Shown here: positions 3,884 to 29,568 of the stretch, in pieces
Layout of the letters: the number at the start of each line of letters is the position of its first letter
How positions within the stretch are numbered: the first letter of the stretch is position 1
Assembly: GCA_029881995.1 (NCBI GenBank)
Contig: JAOULO010000001.1
Coordinates: forward strand, 124,001 to 188,000
Length of the DNA stretch: 64,000 bases
Reading direction: 5' to 3'
Origin: Gammaproteobacteria bacterium
GTDB lineage: Bacteria > Pseudomonadota > Gammaproteobacteria > UBA6429 > Thiohalophilaceae
Made by a program: the position numbers and the translations under genes
Notes under the pieces: model-generated
Database searches by the model: none
The model's input: only the letters and a program-made list of their open reading frames with translations
What the model was told of the DNA's origin: nothing

Positions 3884-4798
3884 ATGAATCTTAGAGATTT
3901 AAATTACATCATTGCCGTGGCCGAAACCCGGCATTTCGGCAAGGCTGCCGACCGTTGCTATGTCAGCCAACCCACCCTGAGTGGCCAGATCAAAAAGCTG
4001 GAAGAGGATCTGGGTGTGATCATCTTTGAGCGTACCAACCGCTCGGTTGAAGTGACCCCCATTGGTGAAGCCATCCTGCAGCACGCCCGCCAGATCACTG
4101 AACAGGCCGGTGCCATCCGCCAGCTGGCCCTATCACACCAGGATCCCCTTGCCGGGCCCTTACGCATTGGTGCCATCCCGACCTTAAGCCCCTACCTGAT
4201 GCCCCTGATCCTGCTTCCCCTCAAAAAAGAACATCCCCAGCTAAAACTGGTGTTATCGGAAGAGATGACTGACATCCTGCTTGGTCGCCTACACAACCAT
4301 GAGATTGATGCCGCCCTGCTGGCCACACCAGTGGAAGAACAGGAGCTGGATAGTATCCCGCTGTTTAATGAACCTTTCTGGCTGGCCCACCCGCGAGATC
4401 ATGCCTTCTATAATATGGAAGAAATCAGTCGTGACGACCTGGAAAACACGGAACTACTTTTACTGTCGGATGGCCATTGTCTGGCAAAACAGGCCATGGA
4501 GGTTTGTCATCTGAAAGAGCGCAAAGAACAGGGTGAGATGGCTGACCTACGTGCAGCCAGCCTGGAAACTTTACTGCAACTGGTAGGAGCGGGTTTTGGC
4601 TCCACCCTGGTGCCCGCTCTGGCCATTGGGGGTAGCTGGAGTACCGGAAGTGGGATTGTGACCCGTAAACTAGAGTTTCCCGATGCCGCCAGGCGTGTCT
4701 CACTGGTTTTTCGTAATAGCTTCCCACGTAAACAGGCCTTGCGGGCATTTGCAGATATTGTCATTCAGCACTTGCCAAATACCGTTACAGTTATCTAA
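3884..4798 (+). CDS. oxyR: Hydrogen peroxide sensor regulator OxyR
   Basis: 304-residue LysR-type regulator with an N-terminal winged helix (residues 1-60: VAETRHFGKAADRCYVSQP) and a C-terminal sensing domain. The peroxide-sensing cysteines are present at exactly Cys199 and Cys208 in GHCLAKQAMEVC, the positions used by the E. coli protein, which separates OxyR from other LysR proteins. It senses peroxide by forming a C199-C208 disulfide and then activates peroxidase and glutathione genes. Fitting targets lie about 5 kb downstream (Prx-Grx and gor). Confidence 0.96.
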   Translation: MNLRDLNYIIAVAETRHFGKAADRCYVSQPTLSGQIKKLEEDLGVIIFERTNRSVEVTPIGEAILQHARQITEQAGAIRQLALSHQDPLAGPLRIGAIPTLSPYLMPLILLPLKKEHPQLKLVLSEEMTDILLGRLHNHEIDAALLATPVEEQELDSIPLFNEPFWLAHPRDHAFYNMEEISRDDLENTELLLLSDGHCLAKQAMEVCHLKERKEQGEMADLRAASLETLLQLVGAGFGSTLVPALAIGGSWSTGSGIVTRKLEFPDAARRVSLVFRNSFPRKQALRAFADIVIQHLPNTVTVI

Positions 4799-4896: not shown

Positions 4897-5082
4897 ATGG
4901 CTGATATCAATCGACTTGCATGGATGATGATGTTTTTTATCGGCGTTATTTTATTCGGCTGGCTGGAATGGCAGTACCAGACAGGTTCAGGAATGGTCTG
5001 GTTTATGCTGACCAGCCTGTGGTCAGCCATCTGCGCTATCGGCTATACCGTTTTAAACTGGTTCCTTGTCGATAATAAATAG
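4897..5082 (+). CDS. Small two-helix membrane protein
   Basis: 61 residues starting at ATG 4897. An in-frame upstream start at 4858 is possible but less likely, because MADINRLAWMMM gives a normal short cytoplasmic lead. Two hydrophobic segments (MMFFIGVILFGWLEW and LWSAICAIGYTVLNWFLV) predict two membrane spans. It is followed after 9 bases by another tiny membrane protein, and this pair precedes the cytochrome operon. Family not recognised. Confidence 0.6.
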   Translation: MADINRLAWMMMFFIGVILFGWLEWQYQTGSGMVWFMLTSLWSAICAIGYTVLNWFLVDNK

Positions 5083-5091
5083 GTACAAAAC

Positions 5092-5196
5092 ATGAATGCC
5101 AAAGATCAAGCAAAAAAAATCTGCGTACGTTGGGTTTGTATTCTGGTGGCACTGATTCCCATTTTTGCAGTTGTCTGGTTCCTGATAGCGGCATAA
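5092..5196 (+). CDS. 34-residue single-span membrane protein
   Basis: A short ORF read directly from the sequence: it starts MNAKDQAKK, continues with a strongly hydrophobic helix VCILVALIPIFAVVWFLIAA and stops at 5196. A positively charged lead followed by one membrane span is a typical small bacterial membrane protein. It lies 9 bases after the previous small gene and is probably co-transcribed with it. No strong RBS is seen, so it is a candidate only. Confidence 0.45.
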   Translation: MNAKDQAKKICVRWVCILVALIPIFAVVWFLIAA

Positions 5197-5397: not shown

Positions 5398-6564
5398 ATG
5401 AACACTACAGAACAATCTGTTCAAATCGTCTCCGTTTCCCATTCTGCCGAAGGGGTTTCTGAAACCCGCACAGCAAGACATTTAAACTGGATCCAGTTTA
5501 TTCTATTTGCAGTTATCTTAATGGTTCCTTTCGATAAGAGTAATGCCTCAAACGGTGAAGAGCTAAACTGCCTTATTTGTCATAAGCACCGAGGCCTGAG
5601 CCGTATCGATGAACAGGGAAAATTCAGGCTATTCTATATAAATCAGGAGTTATTTGAGAGTGGACCTCACCGCCGTAACAACTGCAAGGACTGTCATAAC
5701 GATATCGATCGCATCCCTCACAAGCCTGCCAAAAAGGTCGACTGCACTCAGCAATGTCATATTATTGAACCCTCAGGCAAACGTAAGTTCTCACACAAGT
5801 TTATTGCTGAAACCCTGGCCAAGAGTGTACATGGCAAGTTGGATAAAGATGGCAAACCCAAACCCCACCAGGAAGATTTCCCGGTATGCAAGGACTGTCA
5901 TGATCAACCCTTCTATCGACCTATTGCCATCTACAAGGGTGAAGCCGAACATGGTATCTCTCAGCGCAGTATTACCCGCTGCAAGGCCTGCCACAAAACC
6001 GGTAACTTCGCCAAAGACTTCTATGAACATGTCACCACCCGTTTACATAAGACCCGTTTTTCTAAAGAGATCGTCAATGTCTGTGCAAAATGCCATGGCG
6101 ACTCCGAATTCAGAAAGCGACATGAACTGGATGATGTTATAAAAAGTTATAAGGAAACCTTCCATGGCAAACTGGTTTTCCTGGGCTCAGAAAGAACCGC
6201 AGACTGTATTGATTGCCATGTAGTTGAAGGGGAAAACAATCACCTGATTGAAGCCAAAACTGTTCCTACTTCGGCAATTCATGAGGCCAACCTTGGCAAT
6301 ACCTGTCGCGCCTCTGATTGTCATAAGAAGGCCAGTCCACAGCTGGCTGGTTTTCAAACCCATGTCACTTATGACAGAAAAAAATATCCATTGCAGTTTT
6401 ATATGCTGATTTTCTTTAAGGCACTCATGGCCATCATTCTCTACTTCTTCCTGACCATGATTTTCCTTGAACTATTACGTCGTCTGTTCCCTGATTTCAG
6501 CTTTATGAAGGACAATGCTCCTCACCATATTGTTAAACCAGAAGCAGATAAAGATAAACCATAA
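5398..6564 (+). CDS. Membrane-anchored octahaem cytochrome c
   Basis: 388 residues with eight haem-binding motifs. Six are ordinary CXXCH (Cys58, 96, 164, 195, 229, 270). One is CX3CH (CTQQCH at 116-121) and one is CX4CH (CRASDCH at 303-309). A hydrophobic segment at about 31-49 follows an unusually long polar lead of 30 residues, and a second span at about 335-360 anchors the C-terminus, so the haem domain sits in the periplasm. First gene of an operon with cytochrome b and a trihaem cytochrome. It probably passes electrons between the quinone pool and a periplasmic partner. The family is not one I can name. Confidence 0.85.
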   Translation: MNTTEQSVQIVSVSHSAEGVSETRTARHLNWIQFILFAVILMVPFDKSNASNGEELNCLICHKHRGLSRIDEQGKFRLFYINQELFESGPHRRNNCKDCHNDIDRIPHKPAKKVDCTQQCHIIEPSGKRKFSHKFIAETLAKSVHGKLDKDGKPKPHQEDFPVCKDCHDQPFYRPIAIYKGEAEHGISQRSITRCKACHKTGNFAKDFYEHVTTRLHKTRFSKEIVNVCAKCHGDSEFRKRHELDDVIKSYKETFHGKLVFLGSERTADCIDCHVVEGENNHLIEAKTVPTSAIHEANLGNTCRASDCHKKASPQLAGFQTHVTYDRKKYPLQFYMLIFFKALMAIILYFFLTMIFLELLRRLFPDFSFMKDNAPHHIVKPEADKDKP

Positions 6565-6575
6565 GGAGTACAGCC

Positions 6576-7391
6576 ATGTCAAAATACGATCCAATTGTAT
6601 ATAAAGACGGCAAACGTTACTTCTATCGTTTCTCTGCCCATCAACGTATCCAGCATGTTGTGTTGTTTACATCAGTACTGGCCCTGGCCCTGACTGGTTT
6701 CCCGCTACGCCATGCGGAAGAACCCTGGGCAAAACCACTCTATGACTTTATGGGCGGTACAGAAGTCGCACCGATGATCCATCGTATTGCTGGCTCGGTA
6801 TTACTTGCTCTGTTTGTCTATCACACAATCTACTGGATGGTGAAGTTTTATCAAAACCATATCATGAAGCTGAAGAGAGAAAATAGAGTAACGTTCATGA
6901 ACATTGTTCGTGAGTTTTTCTCACAGGAGATGGTACCTAATAAAAAAGATGTGGTGGATTTTATCCATCTATGGAAATACCTGCTCTATTTTACCAATCG
7001 ACCACCCCGACATGACCGCATGTCGTGGCGTGAAAAGTTTGACTACTTCGCTCCCTACTGGGGTATCCCAATCCTGGGGCCGGCAGGATTCATTCTCTGG
7101 TGGCGTGATGAGTTCTCCCACCTTCTCCCCGGTATCGTATTTAATGCGGCCTATATCATGCATACAGACGAAGCCCTGCTCGCCGTTCTATTCCTGTTCT
7201 TTGTCCACTGGTATAACGTGCACTATGCTCCTGAGAAATTCCCCGCAGCCAAGGTCTGGTTAACAGGTTATCTATCGGAAGATGAAATGATTCATGAACA
7301 CTATTCTCATTATGTCAAAGTAATGATTGAGGCTGGTCTGGAAGAAGAGATCAAACCCCAGCACTTTGGTGGGAGGCATTACGGATGGTAG
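6576..7391 (+). CDS. Cytochrome b (formate-dehydrogenase-gamma / b561-like) membrane subunit
   Basis: 271-residue integral membrane protein with about four spans and histidines placed as in di-haem cytochrome b subunits of formate dehydrogenase and Ni-Fe hydrogenase. Seen: RFSAHQRIQH before span 1, VYHTIYW in span 2, and HWYNVHY in span 4. This type of subunit exchanges electrons with quinones. It starts 11 bases after the octahaem gene behind AAGGAG and overlaps the next gene by 7 bases. No dehydrogenase catalytic subunit is present in the window, so the partner must be the multihaem proteins or lie elsewhere. Confidence 0.85.
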   Translation: MSKYDPIVYKDGKRYFYRFSAHQRIQHVVLFTSVLALALTGFPLRHAEEPWAKPLYDFMGGTEVAPMIHRIAGSVLLALFVYHTIYWMVKFYQNHIMKLKRENRVTFMNIVREFFSQEMVPNKKDVVDFIHLWKYLLYFTNRPPRHDRMSWREKFDYFAPYWGIPILGPAGFILWWRDEFSHLLPGIVFNAAYIMHTDEALLAVLFLFFVHWYNVHYAPEKFPAAKVWLTGYLSEDEMIHEHYSHYVKVMIEAGLEEEIKPQHFGGRHYGW

Positions 7392-8287
7392 ACCTGTTCA
7401 AAAAAATCGTTTTTAAACTCTATGTCATAGGCTTGATGTGCTTTACTGTCTGGTATGGATTTTTTATGTTTCCTCTGATCTTCGGTTTTGAAGGTAAAGA
7501 AGAGGCCAGGGCATCTCTGGAAGCCATGCGAGGGGGTGATACAGAAGAAGAACAGATGTATACCCGTCTGTTAACAGAGCAAACCAAGAAGAAAACTACG
7601 GATCTGGGCTACAAAAAGATTCAACAACCTTATATTGATGGTCGGTTCCATCATATCGGATTCAATATACAAAAGGATGAATTCAGTACCTGTGTACGCT
7701 GCCATGGCAACGTACCGCATGACGAATCAAAGGAAATTCGCAGCTTCTTAAATATGCACACCTTCTATCTTGCCTGTGAGACCTGTCATTCTCAGCCTGC
7801 TAAAGGGGATAAACAGTGGAAATTTTCCTGGTATGATAAAACTACCGGACAAAAGGTTTCTAATCCACAGGCATTACTTGATATTGAAAAAAGCTATACC
7901 AGTGATGATGAGAAATGGCAGTATCCGATTTTTGGCAATTATGGTGCAAAGATTACACCGACTATGACTAAAAACAATGAGCAAAGATTGTTACATGGAA
8001 AAAAGGAAATGGACTTTGTTGTGCGTTACCTGAACGATCAGAAGAACCTTGAGTCGGCCCAGAAATCTCAAATGAAAAAAGTTATCCATCGCAAGGTCAG
8101 CAAACAGCCCGTTGAGTGTAAAACTTGCCACAAGCGTGGTAAAACTAAATATATACCATTTGAAACTCTGGGTTATCCACCCATGCGGATTGATGAGCTG
8201 ACCGATCTTGCAGTTGTGGGTATGATCCAGAAATACAAGAAATTCTATTTACCGAATTTCCTTAACCCAGGCGGAGTAAATAAATAA
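7385..8287 (+). CDS. Membrane-anchored trihaem cytochrome c
   Basis: 300 residues: one N-terminal membrane span (about 9-34), then a periplasmic domain with three CXXCH motifs (CVRCH at 103, CETCH at 131, CKTCH at 245). Conserved single histidines, such as those in GRFHHIGF and the LLHGKKE segment, could be distal ligands. The start codon lies inside the end of the cytochrome b gene, which points to a physical complex. The architecture is loosely like NapC/NrfH-type quinol cytochromes, but the haem number and spacing differ. Confidence 0.82.
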   Translation: MVDLFKKIVFKLYVIGLMCFTVWYGFFMFPLIFGFEGKEEARASLEAMRGGDTEEEQMYTRLLTEQTKKKTTDLGYKKIQQPYIDGRFHHIGFNIQKDEFSTCVRCHGNVPHDESKEIRSFLNMHTFYLACETCHSQPAKGDKQWKFSWYDKTTGQKVSNPQALLDIEKSYTSDDEKWQYPIFGNYGAKITPTMTKNNEQRLLHGKKEMDFVVRYLNDQKNLESAQKSQMKKVIHRKVSKQPVECKTCHKRGKTKYIPFETLGYPPMRIDELTDLAVVGMIQKYKKFYLPNFLNPGGVNK

Positions 8288-8302
8288 CCAAGAAGATATC
8301 GT

Positions 8303-9028
8303 ATGATTAAAAATTGCCTGTTAATTATCCTGCTTCTTCTGCCATCACTGGCGGGAGCCAGTTGGGTATTACAGCAAAGCGATGATGGCCACTGGATCTA
8401 TGGTCAAAATCCGGATCAACATCAACTAGTCATTACCCAACAGAATAAGAAAAAGCAGATTATATTGATCCTGTCACTTGGATATAATTATCAGCTTGTC
8501 CCTCAAACGGCCCAGTTCACCATTGATGATGCCAGTGCCAATATCTATCTCCTGAAAGTCATTAAAAAGCGCCCAGATAGTGTTGCCCTACAACTGGTAT
8601 TAACTGATCTGGAACAGGATCAGCTCATCAACCAGCTGGTGCATGGTCTGCAATTGCAAATTCAGTTTGATCAGCAGATCAGAGCCGATTTTTCTTTAAA
8701 TGGTTTTACCAATACCTTCAGCGACTTTTTGATTGCAAATGATATCGGTCGGCTTGAGCCACTCTGGCTGCAAATGCAGGGCTACCGAAAAGAGCTCACT
8801 TGCTACGAGATCGCCCGGGCCATGATCACAGCAATGCAAATGCGCCAGAAGGGTAAAAACCAGGCTCAAGTGGAGACAGAACTGAGTGAGCTGATGAGTG
8901 AAGAGGCCAGTGCCGCCATACCAGATATCATTGATCAGAGCTTTTCTGTTTCATCCGATAAACTACCCCGAATCCCCTCAACCCGAAAATACGCCTTCTT
9001 TAAGCACTGCATGCAGCAATTTAGGTAA
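8303..9028 (+). CDS. Periplasmic protein of the cytochrome operon, function unknown
   Basis: 241 residues with a signal peptide (MIKNCLLIILLLLPSLAGAS). No haem motif or known domain is seen; two cysteines (in LTCYEIA and the FKHCMQQF tail) could form a disulfide. It starts 15 bases after the trihaem gene, in the same direction, so it is probably the fourth member of the operon and may assist assembly or serve as an accessory subunit. Confidence 0.6.
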   Translation: MIKNCLLIILLLLPSLAGASWVLQQSDDGHWIYGQNPDQHQLVITQQNKKKQIILILSLGYNYQLVPQTAQFTIDDASANIYLLKVIKKRPDSVALQLVLTDLEQDQLINQLVHGLQLQIQFDQQIRADFSLNGFTNTFSDFLIANDIGRLEPLWLQMQGYRKELTCYEIARAMITAMQMRQKGKNQAQVETELSELMSEEASAAIPDIIDQSFSVSSDKLPRIPSTRKYAFFKHCMQQFR

Positions 9029-9445: not shown

Positions 9446-10195
9446 ATGTTAGAGAATCGTGAAGGTCAGAACGTACCACAGGTCACATTCCGTACCCGCA
9501 AGAACCACGAGTGGGTGGATGTATCAACTGACGATATTTTCAAAGGTAAGACTGTAGTTGTATTTTCACTGCCAGGTGCCTTTACCCCAACCTGTTCTTC
9601 AACCCACGTGCCACGCTATAACCAGCTGACACCCACCTTGAAGCAACACGGTGTGGATGAAGTGATCTGTGTCTCTGTGAACGATGCCTTTGTTATGAAC
9701 GAGTGGCAGAAAGAGCAGAATGCTTTTAACGTCAGTTTCCTGCCTGATGGTAATGGTGACTTTAGCCGTGGCATGGGCATGCTGGTACCAAAGAATGACC
9801 TCGGCTTTGGTGATCGCTCATGGCGTTATTCCATGCTGGTAAAAGATGGCGTTGTTGAGAAGATGTTCATCGAGCCAGACGTACCCGGTGATCCATTCGA
9901 AGTATCCGATGCCGACACCATGCTGGCCCACATTGCACCCAATGCGGCCAAGCCTCTGGATGTAAGCGTATTTACTCGCAACGGTTGTGAGTTCTGTGTA
10001 CGTGCCAAGGGCATGCTGAACGATGCCGGTATTCAGTTTGAAGAACTGGTACTGAATCGTGATTACACTGAAGCGACTATCCGTGCGGTATCTGGCCGTT
10101 CGACAGTACCTCAGGTGTTCATCAATGGTCAGCACATTGGTGGTTCGGAAGAACTGGAAGCTTACCTGGCCAACACAAAGAAGAGCGCCGCGTAG
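9446..10195 (+). CDS. Hybrid peroxiredoxin-5/glutaredoxin (glutathione-dependent peroxidase)
   Basis: 249 residues in two fused domains. Residues 1-165 are a Prx5-type peroxiredoxin with the peroxidatic Cys50 in PGAFTPTC. Residues 172-245 are a glutaredoxin with the CEFC motif (Cys181/Cys184) and [14 protein letters not shown] for glutathione binding. The fused enzyme reduces H2O2 and organic peroxides with glutathione. The RBS is AGGAGAT. Glutathione reductase, which recycles its reductant, is the next gene, and OxyR is encoded 5 kb upstream. Confidence 0.95.
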
Positions 10196-10202
10196 CCGAC
10201 TC

Positions 10203-10279
10203 CCCTCACCCCTGCCCTCTCCCCAAAGGGGAGAGGGTGCTAAGTTCCCTCTCCCTCTGGGAGAGGGTTAGGGTGAGGG
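10203..10279. repeat. Nested C/G-rich palindromic repeat (REP-like)
   Basis: A 77-base extragenic palindrome. Outer arms CCCTCACCC and GGGTGAGGG enclose two hairpins: CCCTCTCCCC / GGGGAGAGGG (10215-10237) and CCCTCTCCC / GGGAGAGGG (10247-10267). This motif type is scattered between genes in many proteobacteria. Sitting between the Prx-Grx and gor genes, it can fold into strong hairpins that may block exonucleases or reduce read-through. There is no U-run. Confidence 0.85.
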
Positions 10280-10302
10280 TTAATTTTTAAAGAGGAATGA
10301 TC

Positions 10303-11706
10303 ATGAACAAGCAGCATTATGATTTAATCACCATCGGAGGTGGCAGTGGCGGCCTGGCCGTCGCCGAGACTGCTGCCCAGTTTGGAAAGAAAGTGGCCGT
10401 TATCGAATCTAAAAGCATGGGTGGAACCTGTGTTAACAATGGCTGTGTACCCAAGAAAGTGATGTGGTATGCCGCCAATCTTGCCCATGCAGTGGATGAT
10501 GCTAATGACTTTGGCATTCCGACCACTCGTGGTGAAACAGACTGGCTAAAACTGGTGGCCGGGCGTGAACAATACATCAGTAACATCAACAGTTACTGGA
10601 ATGGCTATGTCGAAGAATGTGGTATTGATCGCATCAATGGTCATGCGCGTTTTGTCGATGCGCATACCATTGAGGTCAACGGCAAGCACTATAGTGCTGA
10701 GCATATTGTTATTGCTACCGGCGGTAAACCTATTGTACCAGCCGTACCCGGTGCAGAACGGGGCATTACCTCAGATGGTTTCTTTGAATTGAAGGAACAA
10801 CCGAAGCGTGTTGCTGTGATCGGTGGTGGCTACATCGGTGTGGAATTGAGTGGTGTATTAAGCGCACTTGGCTCCAATGTCACTATCATTGCACTGGAAA
10901 ATCGCTTGATGGAACGTTTCGACCCAATGATCAGTGAGATACTGGAAACAGAGATGGCCAAACAGGGCATCTGGATCGAGACCGGTTTTCAGGTCAATGC
11001 CATTACCCAGTCAGCGGAAGGTCTGCTGATCCATTCTACTGCAGAGAAAACACTGTCTGCATTTGATACTGTTATCTGGGCCGTGGGTCGTAAACCCAAC
11101 ACAGCCGATCTGAATATTGAAGCCACCGGTATCAACATATTGCCCAATGGCATCATTCCAGTAGATGAGTATGAGAACACCAATGTGGAAGGCGTTTATG
11201 CCATCGGCGATATCACCGGTAAGATGCCCTTAACACCTGTGGCTATTGCAGCAGGTCGTAAACTGGCTCGACGCATATTTAACAATGAATCCAGTGCGCG
11301 AGTGGACTATGACAACATACCCAGTGTTGTATTTGCCCACCCACCCATTGGAACCGTTGGTATAACTGAAGAGGAAGCCAGGCTGCGCTATGGCACTGAC
11401 GTCACTGTATACAAGAGTGAATTCACACCCATGCGTCATGCACTGTCACAACACGGTGTCACTACTGCCATGAAGCTGATCTGTGCAGAAACTGATGAGA
11501 AAGTTGTTGGTATACACATGATTGGTGATAACGTGGATGAGATGTTACAGGGCTTTGCCGTGGCATTGAAAATGGGCGCAACCAAGGCGGACTTTGATAA
11601 CACCATAGCCATACATCCGACCAGCAGTGAAGAGCTGGTGACCATGAAAACCCCTGTATCAGAACCAGTGAAAACAGATGTGACAGAATGGAAAGAGGCA
11701 GGTTAA
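10303..11706 (+). CDS. gor: Glutathione-disulfide reductase
   Basis: 467 residues from the ATG at 10303, chosen over the ATG at 10297 because AGAGGA lies six bases before it. FAD motif GGGSGG, redox-active disulfide [13 protein letters not shown] (Cys43/Cys48), NADP region [11 protein letters not shown] and the C-terminal catalytic [10 protein letters not shown]. It reduces GSSG with NADPH and so feeds the upstream Prx-Grx peroxidase. It is separated from that gene by a palindromic repeat and ends at a strong terminator. Confidence 0.96.
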
Positions 11707-11707
11707 T

Positions 11708-11745
11708 AACAAAGGCTGGGCTCAAATCGTCCAGCCTTTTTTGTT
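11708..11745. terminator. Bidirectional intrinsic terminator, gor / TRAP permease
   Basis: Stem AACAAAGGCTGG pairs with CCAGCCTTTTTTGTT across an 11-base loop. T-runs on both strands let it end gor (plus) and the TRAP operon (minus), whose stop codon lies in the right arm. Confidence 0.85.
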
Positions 11746-14697: not shown

Positions 14698-15588
14698 TCA
14701 ACAACCAAGCAAACTTAGATCCAGTTTTGCCTGTTTCATTGGAGGACACCAGAAACAGGCACCATTAACCGGTCGGCTTATTTGAAACAGGGCATCGGCA
14801 ATGCCGTCTTCCCTGCCCAGCATACGATGAAGAATTGCCTCAAAGGCATCGAGAGATTGACCAAAGGCCACAAAGTTTAAACCTGCTTCAGTCCCATCAA
14901 CCCAGGGGAGAGAACGACGTAAAATAAAAGCTTCGGGTGAAAAACTCTCCTGGGCACTGCGTTTCACATGGGCAGACTCGGGTGCTTCATCAAACTCTTC
15001 ATTATTGCTGATATGCCGACCGATCACGTCATCCATCTCTGCTTCCTCCATATCCTGTATAACATCAAAGTCATGCAGCCATTGCTGTACCGCCACAAAA
15101 CTGGAACCGTCCATGCCATTACCCTGACCACTGACAATGGCGGCCGCAATCGCATCATCACCTTGTGGATTTTCTGTCCCATCTTCATAGCCACTCAGGT
15201 CGCGACTGTCTTTATATAAAAAACCATAGAGGACATGGGATGCGCTAAAGGCAGGAAACAGCATCTCTTCAAGTCTGCGTGAACGATGATAAAGTTCACC
15301 AGGGTCATCACCTCGTAACCAGCACCAGAGTGCGGCCGGTGTAGAAGGAATATCAAAACCAGCACCACTTGTTGCTGATAAATGGCGTAAGCCTTCAATC
15401 TTGACACCCAGCACATTCAATAAAGACAGGCCTATACCCAGCACCACCTCTTTCCCATCCACAAGCTCAGCTAAATCACTTAAGGTAGATTTAATTTGTT
15501 CAGTGGATACGCCACTCTGACAATCGAAACTGAGATAGCGGGAATGCTTAGGTGGTTCGAGCAGAATACCCTGTTGACACTGAGCCAT
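14698..15588 (-). CDS. DyP-type haem peroxidase
   Basis: 296-residue dye-decolorising peroxidase. Seen: the hallmark GYEDGTENP around residue 132 (catalytic Asp of the GXXDG motif), a proximal-histidine region SAHVKRSAQES, and LRRSLPWVDGTEAGLNFVAF near the C-terminus. No signal peptide, so cytoplasmic or loaded into an encapsulin; no encapsulin gene is in the window. RBS AAGGTG. It uses H2O2 to oxidise varied substrates and fits the peroxide-defence theme. Confidence 0.93.
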   Translation of the reverse strand: MAQCQQGILLEPPKHSRYLSFDCQSGVSTEQIKSTLSDLAELVDGKEVVLGIGLSLLNVLGVKIEGLRHLSATSGAGFDIPSTPAALWCWLRGDDPGELYHRSRRLEEMLFPAFSASHVLYGFLYKDSRDLSGYEDGTENPQGDDAIAAAIVSGQGNGMDGSSFVAVQQWLHDFDVIQDMEEAEMDDVIGRHISNNEEFDEAPESAHVKRSAQESFSPEAFILRRSLPWVDGTEAGLNFVAFGQSLDAFEAILHRMLGREDGIADALFQISRPVNGACFWCPPMKQAKLDLSLLGC

Positions 15589-26286: not shown

Positions 26287-29200
26287 TTATGACGCATTCA
26301 CTTTTACAGCTGCTTCATTCAAGTAAACCTTAGTAAACTCATCTACTGGTAAAGGCTTATAAAAATAATAACCCTGAATCTGGTCACAACCAATTTTATT
26401 CAATACACTGAGTTGAGAACTGGTTTCAACACCCTCGGCTGTCACTGTCAATCCTAGTGAATGAGCCATGCTTATAATTGCCAAAGCAATAGAATGAGAA
26501 TCTTCTTTTTCATCTATATCATCTACAAAAGATTTGTCCACCTTAAGTGAATTCACTGGTAGGCTCTTCAAGTGACTCAGGGATGAATAGCCAGTCCCGA
26601 AATCATCTACTGCAACCATAAACCCTGCTGCGCCTAGCGTATTGAGCATGTCGACAGTTCTTTCCACATCATTCATCAAGGTTGTTTCGGTAATTTCGAG
26701 AGTAATATTGGCTGGGCATACATTGTATTTCTGTACAATATCCAGAAATTTATCTATAAGGTCCTTATCAACCAGTTGACGAGCCGATAAGTTAATAGAT
26801 AAATGAGGACGATTAATATCAGCAATATATTTTCGCATTGAATCAAGATACATACAGGATTGTTCAAACACCCATATGCCTATTTCAAGAATTGAGCCAC
26901 TCATTTCAGCTACAGGAATGAACTCTGCTGGAGAAACATCACCTCCTTGGCCTTTCCATCTTAATAATACCTCACCACCTGTGACCTTACTGGTTTTTGC
27001 ATCAACAATAGGTTGGATAACGGTATATAACTCATTATTACTGATAGCAGTCCGCAATCCATTGGCAATCTGCAACTGCCTTTTTGTTGATTGACCTATG
27101 TCGTTACTAAAGAATGTCCAGCCATCCTTACCATTTGACTTACTACTGTACATAGCTGCATCAGCATTTTTCAACAGGCTATCTGGTGTTGTCTTCGAAC
27201 CAAACCCAACCGCTATACCAATACTGACAGTTGAAAAGAATTCAATATTATCAATATGTACAGGCTCTTTGAGTCTATTGATGATCCTGTCCGCGATGGA
27301 AGTAACCACTTCAATATCATTAATCTGATCACACATCACCACAAACTCATCTCCCCCGAACCGACCGACAGTATCACCAGGTCTTACCAGGCTGGTCAGT
27401 TCATCGGCAATGACCCTGAGAAGTTTATCTCCCACTTCATGACCATAGGTATCATTAACCAGTTTAAATTCATCAACATCAATAAACATTATTGCAACAC
27501 TCTTACCAGTCCTTTTAGAGCGATTAAGGGCATTCTCCAGACGGTCATTTATGAGTGTCCGGTTTGGTAAATGTGTCAGTGGGTCATGTGTTGCATACCA
27601 GACTAGTTGTTCTTCAGATTTCTTTCTTTCGGAAATATCTGTCATGGTTGCTACCATCATCCAGCCATCACCTGTTTTAATTTTACTAACGGTTGCTTCT
27701 GCCGGAAAAAAACTTCCATCCTTGCGATAACAGGTAATTTCCGGCCTGTCACTCATTGGCCGTTGTACAACATCCTCATCAAGAAATGTCATAATGCTCC
27801 GCTTATGTCCTTCCCGCATATGAGGGGGTAACAACATATGCACTGACATACCAATGAGTTCATCCCGATCATAGCCAAACATATTTGAAGTTTTTTTATT
27901 CACCCGGGTAATTTTACTACTTTGATCAATTGCAATTATTCCGACATCTGTTGCACCCAGAATTTTTCCAAGTTCAGAGTCATCTCCCCGCGCATGAAAC
28001 ATCCCGCTGTCATGTTCATCATCTAAAAAATCAAAACCTTCATTATTCATTCCAAAGTTAGAGTTACTGCTTATTACCACATAACTACATTCCATTTCAT
28101 TAAACAGCGGTGTCACTAACAAGGATTGAGGATCTGCACCTATAATACCCGAAGACAGTTGAACGACCTGTTCACCTCCTGTGCGTACGACATCATCAAT
28201 AATTTCAGAATTTTCATTGAAAACTTTTAATAACTGACGGCATATCCGATTGTCCATCTTGATTTTAAACAGCCTACTGATAAGAGGGTTAGAGAGTTCT
28301 GATTCATCGGGCAATGGATAGGGCAGGATAGATACGACCTGCCAGTTGTCATTATTGCCTATGGTATTTATAGCTACCTTTGACAGTAGCTTCTCCTTTT
28401 CATAACGTTCAGGGATTACCGGTGCAATATGGCCAAAGCTTTCAACAATACTGAAACGACCATTGGCTTCACATCGTGAGAGATAAGAATTGACACTGGC
28501 ATGATGAGTGATCGCATCCATAATCACCTCACCCTGAGGCGCATGAACCCGAACATGTTCCAGTGCTTCAACCAGGGCTTCTGCATCGGTTGAAGCTGCG
28601 GCATTGGCTGCAGCTGCAAAGGCATGGACACAAACATAGGTACCTTCACCAAAATTGGTCATTACACCATTGCCTGCTGGCCAGATTCCTGTCACATCAT
28701 CGCGTTCAGCCAGGCGTCGCAGATATTCCCTGTTCACGTCCGTCTCCACATCAAGGAAATAGGTATTACTTGAATAAAAGCCTTCACGTACCTCTGGGGT
28801 AAGACAAGCAACCATAGCTTCATCATAATGCCCCATGACAACAGCCATACGATCTTTAAGACCCGCATCAGTAAATTGATTCAACAGGTTGATCTGATCA
28901 CTTCCCGCTGCATAGGGTACAAACACATCTGCACCGGAACGAGCGACCCTGTCCATTAGCTCTGTAAAATCTGAAGTTCCAATAGGAAAATATTCTTCTC
29001 CTACTACCTCACCACCAAATCGTAATAATGCCCGTTTAGCAGCATCAATTGACCCACGAGGCCACTCATAATTATTTCCGGCGAAATACATCTTAGGCCC
29101 AAAGCGATCAGCCATATATGGAATCATTTTATCGATTTGCTGGTTAGGCAGAGCTGAAAAACTAAAAAAATATCGATTGAAAATACTGCCTTCATAAAAA

Positions 29201-29568
29201 GAAAAATTCAGGTAAGGTATTTTTCTGGGTAGTGAGACATGATCTGCTACCGCAATACGTGAATTGGATAACAGGTTACCAATAATCGCAACACAATGAT
29301 GCTTATCAATTAATCTTTCTGCAGCAGGTACAGCCTGTTCTGGCATACTGCCATCATCTTCTATAATCAACTCCAGGGGTTTACCCAGCACCCCTCCCCG
29401 TTCATTAATTTCATCACAGGCAATCTGAGCCGCCCAGATAATTTCCTGACCATATAGTTCAACCATGCCACTCAACGGTGGCATAAGGCCTAAACGGATT
29501 GTTTCAGGGTTGGTAACTTTTTTATTCTTCATGACCAGTTCACTGCACTTCAGATTAACACCCTGCAT
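26287..29568 (-). CDS. AmiC/UrtA-like sensor - PAS - GGDEF - EAL c-di-GMP enzyme
   Basis: 1093 residues. About 22-395 form a type 1 periplasmic-binding-protein domain of the AmiC/UrtA kind (LGLMPPLSGMVELYG, ACDEINERGGVLGKPL). Then come a linker domain (about 400-510), a PAS domain (about 535-650), GGDEF (660-825) and EAL (835-1085). GGDEF is intact at 738-742 with an inhibitory RPGD site at 729-732. The phosphodiesterase shows EVL in place of EAL and an intact DDFGTGYSSL. There is no signal peptide or membrane span, so the binding domain should read a cytoplasmic ligand. It converges on the usher-like gene 4 bases away. Confidence 0.93.
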   Translation of the reverse strand: MQGVNLKCSELVMKNKKVTNPETIRLGLMPPLSGMVELYGQEIIWAAQIACDEINERGGVLGKPLELIIEDDGSMPEQAVPAAERLIDKHHCVAIIGNLLSNSRIAVADHVSLPRKIPYLNFSFYEGSIFNRYFFSFSALPNQQIDKMIPYMADRFGPKMYFAGNNYEWPRGSIDAAKRALLRFGGEVVGEEYFPIGTSDFTELMDRVARSGADVFVPYAAGSDQINLLNQFTDAGLKDRMAVVMGHYDEAMVACLTPEVREGFYSSNTYFLDVETDVNREYLRRLAERDDVTGIWPAGNGVMTNFGEGTYVCVHAFAAAANAAASTDAEALVEALEHVRVHAPQGEVIMDAITHHASVNSYLSRCEANGRFSIVESFGHIAPVIPERYEKEKLLSKVAINTIGNNDNWQVVSILPYPLPDESELSNPLISRLFKIKMDNRICRQLLKVFNENSEIIDDVVRTGGEQVVQLSSGIIGADPQSLLVTPLFNEMECSYVVISSNSNFGMNNEGFDFLDDEHDSGMFHARGDDSELGKILGATDVGIIAIDQSSKITRVNKKTSNMFGYDRDELIGMSVHMLLPPHMREGHKRSIMTFLDEDVVQRPMSDRPEITCYRKDGSFFPAEATVSKIKTGDGWMMVATMTDISERKKSEEQLVWYATHDPLTHLPNRTLINDRLENALNRSKRTGKSVAIMFIDVDEFKLVNDTYGHEVGDKLLRVIADELTSLVRPGDTVGRFGGDEFVVMCDQINDIEVVTSIADRIINRLKEPVHIDNIEFFSTVSIGIAVGFGSKTTPDSLLKNADAAMYSSKSNGKDGWTFFSNDIGQSTKRQLQIANGLRTAISNNELYTVIQPIVDAKTSKVTGGEVLLRWKGQGGDVSPAEFIPVAEMSGSILEIGIWVFEQSCMYLDSMRKYIADINRPHLSINLSARQLVDKDLIDKFLDIVQKYNVCPANITLEITETTLMNDVERTVDMLNTLGAAGFMVAVDDFGTGYSSLSHLKSLPVNSLKVDKSFVDDIDEKEDSHSIALAIISMAHSLGLTVTAEGVETSSQLSVLNKIGCDQIQGYYFYKPLPVDEFTKVYLNEAAVKVNAS

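Follow-up and report, generated by a model that had tools for sequence, protein, structure and literature searches.

What is the role of an operon that encodes an octahaem c-type cytochrome, a cytochrome b, a trihaem c-type cytochrome and an exported protein in a gammaproteobacterium of the Thiohalophilaceae? The locus lies in a 64,000-nucleotide stretch of contig JAOULO010000001.1, hereafter the window. A preliminary description took it for a possible quinone-linked redox complex unlike any respiratory complex that its author could name, perhaps connecting the quinone pool to a periplasmic or outside partner. Knowledge of the inner-membrane step in extracellular electron transfer comes mainly from Geobacter and Shewanella, and we asked whether the operon resembles any system of that kind.

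We located all four described open reading frames (ORFs), together with two small upstream ORFs that the description had overlooked (Table 1). The four lie in line as described; the operon had been called overlapping, whereas only the cytochrome b and trihaem genes overlap, by 7 bases, and the remaining gaps are 11 and 15 bases. The count of eleven c haems stands: the octahaem protein has six CXXCH motifs plus the reported CX3CH (C116–H121) and CX4CH (C303–H309), and the trihaem protein has three CXXCH. These numbers are far above those in residue shuffles (5,000 trials; at most 3 motifs for the octahaem and 2 for the trihaem protein), and all haem cysteines are invariant in relatives. A hydrophobic stretch opens the octahaem protein and a helix closes it. 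The small ORFs, s1 and s2, sit between oxyR and the octahaem gene; s1 has no Pfam match and s2 no credible one. Homologues of s1 with 42–58% identity lie directly upstream of the octahaem gene at seven other loci (L043, L044, L045, L046, L100, L102 and L103), and s2-like peptides occupy the same position in L100, L102 and L103.

Table 1. Coordinates of the operon and its small upstream ORFs in the window
Feature	Position	Strand	Length (aa)	Description
s1	4897..5082	+	61	Two predicted transmembrane helices; candidate small membrane subunit
s2	5092..5196	+	34	One predicted transmembrane helix; candidate small membrane subunit
Octahaem c-type cytochrome	5398..6564	+	388	N-terminal signal/anchor; C-terminal transmembrane helix
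Di-haem cytochrome b (predicted)	6576..7391	+	271	Ni_hydr_CYTB/FdnI–HydC type; putative quinone-facing subunit
Trihaem c-type cytochrome	7385..8287	+	300	N-terminal membrane anchor; likely electron relay
Fourth gene, exported accessory protein (predicted)	8303..9028	+	241	No haem motif

The neighbours of the operon include oxyR and genes for a peroxiredoxin–glutaredoxin, a pyridine nucleotide-disulphide reductase and a TRAP transporter, and, as had been claimed, no gene for a molybdenum or nickel catalytic subunit. OxyR-like regulator, peroxiredoxin–glutaredoxin, glutathione-reductase-like and DyP-type peroxidase genes (window 3884–4798, 9446–11706 and 14698–15588) flank the operon, an arrangement that gives the impression of an insertion between oxyR and its target genes. 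We considered a role in peroxide defence and rejected it because the neighbours differ in relatives. Farther along (26287–29568), the window encodes a 1,093-aa protein with a periplasmic amino-acid-type binding domain followed by PAS, GGDEF and EAL domains.

The cytochrome b matches PF01292 (Ni_hydr_CYTB) above cut-off at 35.5 bits and, weakly, the formate dehydrogenase gamma model TIGR01583. Its histidine pairs H69/H83 and H196/H211 are kept in 36–37 of 37 sequences, a conservation that suggests two b haems, as the preliminary description had proposed. In the trihaem protein, the three haem motifs and H89, H112, H125 and H235 are invariant across 33 sequences. A PDB sequence search with this protein gave a single weak match, 1sp3, and a search at E 1e-15 found no match in 396 phylum-wide genomes besides the window's own.

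The octahaem protein might itself be a catalyst that receives electrons from the cytochrome b, such as a reductase of the nitrite, hydroxylamine or tetrathionate type or a peroxidase-type enzyme. Octahaem enzymes are annotated with cytochrome b partners, as Otr is with cytochrome b561 (PMC7509429), and the trihaem protein weakly matches TIGR04315 over part of its length. However, NCBIfam gave no hit for the octahaem protein at E 0.1, not even to octaheme_Shew, and the missing family-profile match sets it apart from the octahaem reductases (OTR/HAO/ONR). It has no PDB match by sequence, and a fold search with its predicted structure, a poor one (pLDDT 65), gave none either. In 32 aligned octahaem proteins, all 16 haem cysteines are invariant, as are eight histidines outside the motifs (His 91, 108, 133, 145, 211, 256, 282 and 322). 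This pattern suggests eight bis-histidine haems; with eight invariant second histidines, electron transfer is favoured over catalysis and no haem site would be left free. The flanking oxyR, peroxiredoxin–glutaredoxin, glutathione-reductase-like and DyP peroxidase genes would suit such an enzyme, but they are not kept beside the operon in relatives. Overall, we consider catalysis by the octahaem protein very improbable and read it as an electron carrier.

A precedent for the octahaem–cytochrome b pair came from five sister genomes, which encode fused proteins of 644–672 aa. The one studied closely (L017; 645 aa) has nine CXXCH motifs followed by a PF01292 cytochrome b domain. Our octahaem profile aligned with its residues 24–348, C-terminal helix included (hhalign probability 99.8), and the cytochrome b profile with residues 373–610 (probability 99.95), so that the two window proteins match the fused protein in the same order and over almost their full length. 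The octahaem similarity is partly driven by haem motifs, whereas that of the cytochrome b and of the shared C-terminal helix is not. The same order, a multihaem c part (nine haems in CbcL) and then an FdnI/HydC-like b domain, has been described for CbcL, MtrH and MtoC (PMC6295460). The link to CbcL runs through the sister-genome protein, which is CbcL-like by architecture, and Geobacter CbcL and CbcBA are compared here by description. Because the fused protein aligns with both window proteins, the core has a precedent, and the earlier view that it matches no respiratory complex does not hold: its design logic was already known from Geobacter CbcL and CbcBA. The homology of the cytochrome b with the b half of the CbcL-like protein, and its Ni_hydr_CYTB/FdnI–HydC type, also support the proposed quinone link. 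We do not file the window set as CbcL because it comprises two chains, not one, and because CbcL was compared by architecture. In the literature searched, we found no description of the exact octahaem–cytochrome b–trihaem set.

A search for the four-gene set in other genomes, as the preliminary description had suggested, recovered a smaller unit. The three-gene core of octahaem, cytochrome b and trihaem genes, though rare, turns up again within the family and in members of several further gammaproteobacterial families, whereas the fourth gene occurs in 3 of 369 class genomes (G083 and G159 carry it), each time beside a type I operon. No homologue of the fourth gene was found in the family relatives tested, where one 44-residue match (E 0.06) was counted as chance. 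AlphaFold predicts for it a beta-sandwich plus helices at the C-terminus (pLDDT 86), and the model had no significant PDB match; the best plausible likeness, IalB (3dtd; E 0.05), gives at most a weak hint of fold. We therefore treat the fourth gene as a rare, optional accessory outside the conserved core.

In a tree, most of the cytochrome b proteins fall into two main groups: type I, to which the window belongs (14 rows, support 96/97), and its paralogue, type II. Divergent forms make up the rest. CX4CH marks the type I octahaem protein, whereas type II has CX2CH at that site. In a further variant (L107, L109, L110, L112 and L114–L116), the octahaem and trihaem families and NHL/multihaem partners are the same as in the cytochrome b form, but the place of the cytochrome b is taken by a NapH-like Fer4_5 membrane polyferredoxin, which often forms one protein with the octahaem part. 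At the loci read, the trihaem gene follows the cytochrome b gene or, in the NapH-like variant, the octahaem part. In the NapH-like clusters, the polyferredoxin adjoins the octahaem protein or is fused with it; the trihaem protein and an NHL–12-haem fusion come next, and proteins with 7, 8 and 6 haems are encoded close by. Adjoining a divergent octahaem–cytochrome b–trihaem operon, on the opposite strand, is a gene for a 309-aa protein (L101:8946–9875) with five CXXCH motifs, one CX3CH and a trihaem-like C-terminal part.

Matches in Bacteroidota (24–28% identity) were rejected as relatives; these were giant multihaem clusters matched by their haem motifs. The Bacteroidota MAG contigs concerned (L034–L042) encode proteins with 13 to 82 CXXCH motifs, resemble described PCC3 conduits and mostly carry a gene for a five-helix membrane protein upstream. 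A plasmid collection contained no cytochrome b or trihaem match.

The genomic context of related operons points to a partner outside the cell. In a sister species (G002), genes for a barrel candidate, an NHL protein and an 8-haem protein are followed by a type I and then a type II octahaem–cytochrome b–trihaem operon, and these by genes for another NHL protein and an 18-haem protein. Clusters of this kind also contain or adjoin a type I operon in G083, G159 and G337, with an additional 12-haem protein in G159; in G327, G031 and G035, the slot is occupied by a type I-like module on its own. The homologue of the 18-haem protein in the window genome matches MtrC/MtrF-like domains. The barrel candidates have no Pfam match; most show a signal-like N-terminus, end in Phe and exceed shuffled sequences in amphipathic beta stretches, and they may form the outer-membrane barrel of the conduit. 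The proposed tie to a periplasmic or outside partner is supported by G002, G083 and G159, in which conduit genes lie next to this operon. Types I and II also travel together: five of six type I holders in the family have type II (Fisher P 0.009, uncorrected for kinship), as do 5 of 5 type I genomes in the class sample, against 2 of 360 without type I (likewise uncorrected).

In the window genome itself, no conduit gene adjoins the operon, whose neighbourhood differs in most relatives; a type II conduit cluster lies apart from it on contig C23 (L050). The type II cytochrome b there reads as two ORFs (L050:10819–11391 and 11388–11735) with an apparent frameshift; the assembly may be wrong at this point, or the copy may be broken. 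If the copy is broken, the window operon is the sole intact module in the genome. The distance between the window operon and the conduit genes would suit a quinol:cytochrome c branch within the periplasm, leading for instance to a periplasmic reductase or to terminal oxidases, that has no part in extracellular electron transfer. Several relatives likewise carry the module alone, for instance beside secDF. The co-occurrence with conduit clusters, and the synteny with them that repeats in sister and distant genomes, argue against such a branch, which we regard as unlikely. Rather, the complex very probably links the quinone pool to the cell exterior, exchanging electrons with it through a chain of haem proteins.

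For the direction of flow, we turned to quinone and carbon-fixation genes. The window genome, a MAG that is 97% complete, encodes UbiA; MenD over cut-off and MqnA were not found in it, and at that completeness an unseen menaquinone pathway is possible. A RuBisCO large chain is present there, as in 14 of the 15 genomes checked overall, and MenD in 3 of the 15 (G019, G024 and G156). Ubiquinone and RuBisCO genes with no menaquinone pathway detected favour electron uptake. CbcL-family proteins are thought to run in both directions (PMC6295460), and CbcL has a potential of −194 mV (PMC9129911); were the potential here similar, electrons entering from outside would run downhill to a ubiquinone pool. 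The same complex could instead run outward, as a quinol oxidase that passes electrons to extracellular acceptors. Geobacter CbcL and CbcBA, as characterized, are quinol oxidases, and the three MenD-bearing genomes hold related modules; on the other hand, the window genome is ubiquinone-only by the genes detected, holders are RuBisCO-bearing, and flow from ubiquinol would be uphill if the octahaem potential were as low as that of CbcL. Outward flow is a real possibility, short of an even chance. Inward flow, with the module acting as a quinone reductase, appears more likely.

Taken as a whole, the operon core probably encodes a quinone:multihaem-cytochrome oxidoreductase of the CbcL type, split into separate genes and equipped with a membrane-anchored trihaem protein of its own, and it more likely works inward. 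In the mechanism that we infer, the proteins would form a complex in which the di-haem cytochrome b binds quinone and trades electrons with the pool, and the octahaem protein, held by its C-terminal helix, would carry electrons on the periplasmic face. The membrane-anchored trihaem protein, as its partner, would hand electrons to, or take them from, periplasmic and outer-membrane multihaem cytochromes, presumably those of the extracellular electron transfer conduit whose genes lie apart, on contig C23. The complex may be accompanied by one or two very small membrane proteins and, in some genomes, by the exported beta-sandwich protein. RuBisCO-bearing Gammaproteobacteria would then have a CbcL-type module that is divided into separate genes and comes with a trihaem relay and mini-subunits of its own. 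Menaquinone genes went undetected in most such holders, the window genome included, and the set would give a concrete candidate route from outside electrons to ubiquinone in these bacteria. More tentatively, and with considerable doubt, we suggest a distinct class of quinone-linked complex in autotrophic Gammaproteobacteria, comprising an octahaem c, a cytochrome b, a trihaem c, two mini-subunits and an optional exported protein, that would pass extracellular electrons to ubiquinone and whose quinone-side part would be exchangeable (cytochrome b or NapH-like polyferredoxin).

Compared with known systems, the operon differs from the cytochrome b complexes of formate dehydrogenase and Ni-Fe hydrogenase, which have the catalytic molybdenum or nickel subunit that it lacks. 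Among known conduits, the nearest are PCC3 of iron oxidizers and the Uet conduit of cathode-oxidizing Tenderiales. In composition and by description alone, the associated clusters resemble Uet, with its 11/12-haem, 4-haem, barrel and NHL proteins; the account of Uet cited here lists no octahaem–cytochrome b–trihaem quinone module, unlike the system described here (PMC10734462). Geobacter CbcBA, part of Cbc5 (cbcEDCBA), likewise encodes its multihaem c (CbcA) and its cytochrome b (CbcB) in adjacent but distinct genes. By description, CbcA has seven haems, whereas the window octahaem protein has eight and is joined by a trihaem protein, and the window operon lacks counterparts of the Cbc5 partners CbcC (11 haems in G. 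metallireducens), mono-haem CbcD and CbcE (PMC10989804). The CbcL/MtrH/MtoC proteins of Geobacter, Rhodoferax and Dechloromonas share the multihaem c part followed by an FdnI/HydC-like di-haem b part. In CbcL, all nine periplasmic haems are bis-His and the protein reduces the triheme PpcA (PMC9129911), paralleled here by the probable bis-His ligation of all octahaem haems and by a trihaem cytochrome as likely hand-over partner. Whereas CbcL is one polypeptide with nine CX2CH motifs, the window and related non-fused loci use two genes, and the window octahaem protein has eight haems, including those of CX3CH and CX4CH; to the CbcL design, the window adds a dedicated membrane-anchored trihaem gene, small membrane ORFs and a ubiquinone background.
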